DNA from: Oxalobacteraceae bacterium
GTDB taxonomy: Bacteria > Pseudomonadota > Gammaproteobacteria > Burkholderiales > Burkholderiaceae_D
Assembly (NCBI GenBank): GCA_023259175.1
Contig: JAHFQV010000004.1
Span: forward strand, 1-64,000
Direction: 5' to 3'
DNA length: 64,000 nucleotides
Shown: in pieces, positions 5,643 through 44,946 of the stretch
Position numbering within the stretch: the first letter of the stretch is position 1
Layout of the letters: each line of letters opens with the position of its first letter
The notes under the pieces: model-generated
Told to the model about the DNA's origin: nothing
Seen by the model: the letters and a program-made list of their open reading frames with translations, nothing else
Databases searched by the model: none
Made by a program: the position numbers and the translations under genes

Positions 5643-5682
5643 AGGGGAAACGCGGATTTATTCAATAAGCGCGCTTCCCTAG
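5643..5682. repeat. Minimal copy of CTAG-ended MITE-like repeat family
   Basis: aggggaaacgcggatttattcaataagcgcgcttccctag matches the terminal ~32 nt of the 37404-37636 element plus its CTTCCCTAG end. Confidence 0.7.
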
Positions 5683-6267: not shown

Positions 6268-6364
6268 CTAGGGAAGCTCCATTTTTTCGTTGAGCAAGCT
6301 TGAAAATTCAGGTTCTTAAAAAAATGGGGTTTCGCGCTTATCGAATAAATCCGCGCTTCCCTAG
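6268..6364. repeat. CTAG-ended MITE-like repeat (97 bp copy)
   Basis: ctagggaagc...tggggtttcgcgcttatcgaataaatccgcgcttccctag; ends inverted; shares long blocks with copies at ~30.6 and 37.4 kb. Confidence 0.8.
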
Positions 6365-30539: not shown

Positions 30540-30611
30540 ATCACGATTTACGTGAAATCATAAAATAGCACCCTCAATTCGCGCATTCACAGCGCTCAAT
30601 TTTTAATAATT

Positions 30612-30740
30612 TTCTTCCAAAATCGCCGATTTTGTGACGAACCCAGAGGGAAATCCCATTTTTTCCTTGATCAAGCTCGCAAAATCAGCTTCCAAAAAAA
30701 TGGGGTTTCGCGCTTATCGAATAGATACGCGCTTCCCTAG
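30612..30740. repeat. CTAG-ended MITE-like repeat, one-ended copy upstream of surE
   Basis: cttccaaaatcgccgattttgtgacgaacccagagggaaatcccattttttccttgatcaag...tggggtttcgcgcttatcgaatagatacgcgcttccctag is the reverse complement of ~37404-37530. Confidence 0.85.
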
Positions 30741-37403: not shown

Positions 37404-37636
37404 CTAGGGAAGCGCGGACTTATTCGATAAGCGCGAAACCCCATTTTTTTTGAAAGCTGATTTTGCGACCTTGATCAAGGAAAAAATGGGATTTCCCTCC
37501 GGGTTCGGCACAAAATCGGCGATTTTGGCAGCAAATTCCCTTGCTTGGCGCCAGCCAAGCTGCGGTAATGTTGCTACCAAACTCATCCCATTTTGAGCTC
37601 GAACGCGCATACCGAATAAATCCGCGCTTCCCTAGG
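37404..37636. repeat. Full-length CTAG-ended MITE-like element (233 bp, terminal inverted repeats ~32 bp)
   Basis: Left ctagggaagcgcggacttattcgataagcgcg and reverse-complemented right ctagggaagcgcggatttattcggtatgcgcg match at all but a few positions; no transposase inside. Confidence 0.88.
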
Positions 37637-44895: not shown

Positions 44896-44946
44896 CTCGG
44901 GGAAGCGATGTTGAGTTCAGAGATTAGGCTGAAATTCACTTCCCTA
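44896..44946. repeat. Possible degenerate CTAG-ended repeat; right end supplies stop codon of the DUF1501 gene
   Basis: ctcggggaagcg...ttcacttccctag; inverted ends resemble the CTAGGGAAG family ends, interior not clearly matching. Confidence 0.45.

Follow-up and report, generated by a model that had tools for sequence, protein, structure and literature searches.

The element between ppnN and cheV

The window analyzed here is a stretch of 64,000 nucleotides from the genome of an Oxalobacteraceae bacterium, the assembly of which comprises 4.03 Mb in 233 contigs and is 95.8 per cent complete. Between ppnN and cheV, positions 37404–37635 of the window consist, in this order, of CTAG, a 224-bp unit, and a second CTAG. 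The element proper (37408–37631) is non-coding and is enclosed by these two direct copies of CTAG, and both of its ends are formed by an inverted repeat that begins with GGAAGCGCGGAYTTATTCG and is identical at 29/32 positions. The initial annotation had delimited the element as 37404–37636; the sequence and its terminal inverted repeats (TIRs) are present as described, whereas the right end overshoots by 1 bp. As had also been noted, no transposase is encoded, and the 224-bp element contains no open reading frame of consequence. Its parts are as follows.

37404–37407, no strand: left target-site duplication CTAG (window sequence, flank comparison)
37408–37631, plus strand: full-length MITE of 224 bp without a transposase, of a subfamily shared with locus L005
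37408–37435, plus strand: left terminal inverted repeat GGAAGCGCGGACTTATTCGATAAGCGCG, 28 bp (32 bp including CTAG; TIR search)
37436–37497, no strand: internal hairpin arm 1 (about 37435–37497), with a CCCATTTTTT/AAAAAATGGG stem and compensatory changes across copies
37502–37603, no strand: internal hairpin arm 2, a long stem with compensatory changes across copies
37604–37631, minus strand: right terminal inverted repeat GGAAGCGCGGATTTATTCGGTATGCGCG (TIR search)
37632–37635, no strand: right target-site duplication CTAG (window sequence, flank comparison)

A search of the window with the TIR, at no more than three mismatches, returned four matches, compared to none in 100 shuffled sequences. 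Besides the full-length element, the window carries the following copies.

5646–5678, plus strand: 33-bp extreme deletion derivative between ribH and nusB, with CTAG on the right and GAGG on the left
6272–6360, minus strand: 89-bp internal-deletion derivative downstream of nusB, with CTAG on both sides (6268–6271 and 6361–6364)
30608–30736, minus strand: one-ended truncated copy upstream of surE, with CTAG at 30737–30740

All three had been recognized initially, together with a possible copy at 44896–44946 that we reject as a member of the family: only 12/19 TIR bases match, a score equaled by 11 per cent of random 80-bp windows. Positions 44900–44946 hold a small imperfect palindrome (GGAAGCGATG...CACTTCCCTAG) beside a gene end, which does not belong to the 224-bp family. 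The proposal that copies vary in length by internal deletion holds for 6272–6360 and 5646–5678 but not for 30608–30736, where the single end denotes a truncation. Units of 33–37 bp, seen at 5646–5678 and at loci L161 and L164, consist of one TIR joined to the final few nucleotides of the opposite terminus; their junctions lie at GC/GCGC microhomology, as recurrent extreme deletions.

Family size, distribution, and genomic setting

The genome-wide search for further copies had been designated beforehand as a refuting test, and the proposed family survived it: at no more than three mismatches, the TIR matched the 4.03-Mb genome 103 times, versus once for the reversed pattern. BLAST with the full element returned 92 pieces at about 40 places, and a search that required both ends identified 29 distinct elements of 90–234 bp. 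The 43 TIR-like matches beyond these 29 elements are mostly one-ended, truncated, or located at contig edges, and a few are due to chance. Within Undibacterium, the genus to which this genome probably belongs, the distribution is patchy, with a match to the 224-bp family in 6 of the 60 genomes searched, this one included. The full family is present here and in G019, G021, and G028, and weak TIR-sized or short matches were found in G024 and G026. Viral contigs searched with the TIR gave no match.

The initial annotation had described the copies as always lying between genes, and this extends to the genome, where every copy with flanks adequate for classification is intergenic (24/24). Four of them (L004, L010, L018, and L024) had appeared to be intragenic and, on re-examination, are not disruptions: L018 precedes a plsY-like start, and the other three involve short spurious frames or upstream extensions. 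Apart from these four, the copies occupy six convergent, four divergent, and ten tandem gaps. Because non-coding sequence holds only 19 of the window's 101 CTAG sites, chance does not account for the exclusively intergenic location. On the simplest reading, it most likely reflects the purging of insertions into genes, and not a function in termination.

The suggestion that the element acts as a terminator or 3' stabilizer received no specific support. All types of gaps are occupied alike, the copies show no preferred orientation toward flanking genes, and a consensus scan for intrinsic terminators performed no better than chance. A comparison with Rfam produced no match over threshold, RNA-OUT for instance scoring 20.4 vs 41 bits. 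Passive effects of the strong predicted RNA hairpin on 3' ends are possible.

Target-site duplication

Identical 4-bp flanks are present in 22 of the 28 testable copies of the genome (20 CTAG and 2 TTAA). Permutation of the flanks led to an expectation of 19.0 matches (P-value = 0.014), a weak contrast since CTAG dominates; for CTAG copies, this genome does not by itself allow a duplication of CTAG to be told from one of TA, and the assignment of 4 bp is based on relatives together with the TTAA copies. Matching flanks in the sister genomes and elsewhere in the order comprise CTAA, TTAG, CTAT, ATAA, TTAA, and CTAG. Among 59 paired elements from this genome, the sister genomes, and the order, 37 have matching flanks versus 15.5 expected (20,000 permutations); 10 of the 37 matching pairs are non-palindromic, and no 5-bp duplication was found among the 59. 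Judged from these flanks, the target-site duplication is 4 bp in length and of the type YTAR, not TA. YTAR is also the target of IS5 (PMC10359306).

CTAG is the rarest YTAR site in the window (101 sites vs 267 for TTAA and 333 for CTAA/TTAG). Because 20 of the 22 duplications in the genome are CTAG despite this rarity, the family has a real preference for CTAG. At one locus (L008, near 1728), a TTAA insertion abuts an intrinsic-terminator hairpin, AAGGCACTTCGGTGCCTTTTTTT.

Full-length elements with similar ends

A TIR search of plasmids located CTAG followed by GGAAGCGCTGATTTATTCG, 18/19 identical to the TIR, in a plasmid of Aromatoleum aromaticum EbN1 (L132, from 3005), just upstream of an IS5-family transposase, and this transposase protein provided the route to full-length elements. 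One such element in Undibacterium G017 (L135:946–2162) has a length of 1217 bp, CTAA on both sides, a right end that is 16/19 identical to the MITE TIR, and a transposase with the domains PF05598 and PF01609. A Hydrogenophilus element of 1229 bp is flanked on both sides by TTAG, and further full-length elements of the genus are flanked on both sides by TTAG or TTAA. At locus L252, an end with 15/19 identity to the MITE TIR, similar but not identical, accompanies an IS5-group transposase. IS elements with PF05598 matches mostly have other ends, and L117 has no ends matching the MITE TIR.

The initial annotation had called for a search for a full-length IS with matching TIRs, which was successful in part: IS5-group elements with similar ends exist, and none has identical ends. 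Neither this genome nor the sister genomes in which the family occurs yielded an intact transposase with exact MITE ends, and the search for a donor in this genome recovered only a transposase remnant (C220:39205–39384). The assembly is fragmented, and the repeat copies located at its contig ends point to the collapse of repeats, so the absence of a donor from this genome is weak evidence. By sequence comparison, the 224-bp family appears to be an IS5-group derivative in both respects that could be tested, namely its YTAR duplication and a TIR akin to those of transposase-coding elements.

Empty sites and recent activity

Empty sites had been proposed for sister strains, and their lack designated as a second refuting test; the family survived this one too, all four window insertions being absent from the relatives compared. 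The ppnN–cheV site and the ribH–nusB site each are without the TIR in 29/29 syntenic Undibacterium relatives, as are the site upstream of surE in 25/25 syntenic relatives and the site downstream of nusB in 29/29 relatives in which it is readable. These genomes belong to other species (PpnN at most 86 per cent identical), making this a between-species comparison with junctions that are not base-exact. The candidate MITE family is thus borne out by its copies, TIRs, duplications, and empty sites: the elements are short, bounded by TIRs, accompanied by a target duplication, dispersed, and absent from the sites of other species, which supports the classification as MITEs.

Two clusters of seven copies each differ by no more than about 3 per cent within the cluster, occupy different loci, and have intact ends and duplications, and the closest copies in the two subfamilies are 0.4 per cent apart (about 1 nt). 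The window copy at 37408–37631 groups with L005 and, being 7.6 per cent from the consensus, is older. Copies in two subfamilies that differ by about 1 nt imply recent jumping, which shows recent, not necessarily present-day, mobility of the family.

Predicted fold

Both strands of the element are predicted to form a three-way junction (z of −9.7 and −12.7). In an alignment of 30 full-length copies from four genomes, 97.2 per cent of cells pair, and two-sided compensatory changes, to which the internal stems contribute, occur in 16 of 69 pairs versus 5.8 in shuffles and 1–8 in slid controls; the shuffles leave relatedness in, and several changes are common to whole subfamilies and clustered in few lineages. 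The fold itself is real. Arm-to-arm copying in palindromes could yield the same pattern of covariation, and we consider it unlikely that selection, acting on the RNA or on extruded DNA, and not chance or such copying, maintains the internal three-way junction.

Origin and nature of the family

The family is very probably a non-autonomous transposable element (MITE) of the IS5 group. We hypothesize that a trans-acting DDE transposase of the IS5 type would bind the GGAAGCGCGGATTTATTCG ends and then move the 224-bp unit to YTAR sites, duplicating 4 bp; among these sites, the palindrome CTAG would be strongly preferred. Transposition itself is an inference, and so is the identity of the transposase, since every full-length element found differs from the MITE in its ends. 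The initial annotation had considered a MITE of the IS630/Tc1-mariner type with a TA target duplication, and TA is indeed central in every duplicated site. However, the outer bases match and co-vary (TTAA/TTAA, CTAA/CTAA, TTAG/TTAG, CTAT/CTAT, and ATAA/ATAA), and because they change in concert, a 2-bp TA duplication is ruled out; the non-palindromic cases (CTAA, TTAG, CTAT, and ATAA) refute an IS630/TA origin. Moreover, full-length elements with matching ends have IS5-group transposases, so kinship with IS630/Tc1-mariner is extremely improbable.

It is quite improbable that the copies represent an RNA-level regulatory element (a terminator, stabilizer, or structured RNA) that is spread by transposition and kept for its fold. 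The great stability of the fold on both strands and the excess of compensatory changes, internal stems included, would be expected of such an element, but its patchy presence in the genus, its occurrence in convergent, divergent, and tandem gaps, the lack of an Rfam match over threshold, and the concentration of the compensatory changes in few lineages would not. Full-length foldbacks also occur in other MITE families that share this TIR but have unrelated interiors, which indicates that the fold-back shape may be mechanical. The many degenerate copies, and the failure to find an intact donor transposase, would also fit a dead repeat, that is, a fossil family without current mobility. Such a fossil is somewhat unlikely in view of the two clusters of near-identical copies, some of them 1 nt apart, that lie at distinct sites and have kept their ends and duplications intact.

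Comparison with known and related elements

Among described elements, the nearest analogue of the IS5-type family reported here comes from Pseudomonas syringae pv. phaseolicola: MITEPsy1, an IS5-linked non-coding MITE of 100 nt and six copies with the TIR GGAAGGTCTGAAAAAGCC, duplicates 4 nt (CTAG or YTAA) and has been shown to transpose in vivo (PMC3189936). Both families are non-coding and tied to IS5, with ends that start with GGAAG and a 4-nt duplication; MITEPsy1 differs in its shorter length, low copy number, and a TIR that diverges after GGAAG. In plasmids of the P. syringae group (L133:3005–3103; L134), we observed an unannotated CTAG-flanked inverted-repeat element of about 100 bp (GGAGGCGCTGATTTATTC), which in L134 overlaps the end of an HNH endonuclease gene. 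It is not MITEPsy2, which has 228 nt and Tn3-type ends (PMC3189936), nor is it MITEPsy1.

The IS5-group elements of G017 and EbN1 resemble the MITE in their better end (16–18/19 identical, with a PF05598 and PF01609 transposase) and, where both ends are present, in their 4-bp YTAR duplication. In contrast to the MITE, they encode a transposase and are about 1.2 kb long, and the MITE interior was not traced to a deletion of any of them. Correia elements and other bacterial MITEs are likewise short, TIR-bounded, intergenic, present in many copies, and without a transposase (PMC10969869); their ends and donor family are different, and regulatory effects have been demonstrated for Correia elements.

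A second MITE family, 159 bp in length, with the interior ATTTCGTC/TCATCCCC, an IS5-type TIR, and 4-bp duplications of CTAA, TTAG, CTAT, and CTAG, is present in the metagenome-assembled genome (MAG) of Undibacterium sp. 339R (JANYFV01; L078–L101). A Polaromonas MAG (JAURVI01; L080, L081, L086, L094, and L098) contains a 161-bp near-perfect foldback (z of −11.8) in which the same TIR encloses an unrelated interior. Both share the TIR GGAAGCGCGGATTTATTC and the full-length foldback with the 224-bp family, and the 159-bp family also shares its YTAR-type flanks. Unlike the 224-bp family, they form a simple hairpin instead of a three-way junction and have interiors that are unrelated by eye, and the Polaromonas copies seen are without matching 4-bp flanks. 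In several other Burkholderiales genomes (L229, L231, L233, L237, L245, and L248), there are MITE-like units of 109–220 bp that have related TIRs and are flanked by clean 4-bp duplications. TIR-like matches occur in 48/399 genomes, some single matches being due to chance.

The 224-bp family is a real but ordinary addition to a well-known class of bacterial mobile elements. With it, Undibacterium gains an IS5-type MITE family of high copy number and recent activity, none having been found described for this genus in the literature searched, and its target-site assignment is corrected from TA to the 4-bp YTAR/CTAG. The 30 full-length copies make it testable whether a MITE fold is selected or is a by-product of palindrome maintenance. 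If the fold is selected, this MITE would disseminate a structured element that has a function, and MITEs with one IS5 TIR would repeatedly gain unrelated, fully folded interiors since the fold aids mobility or persistence.
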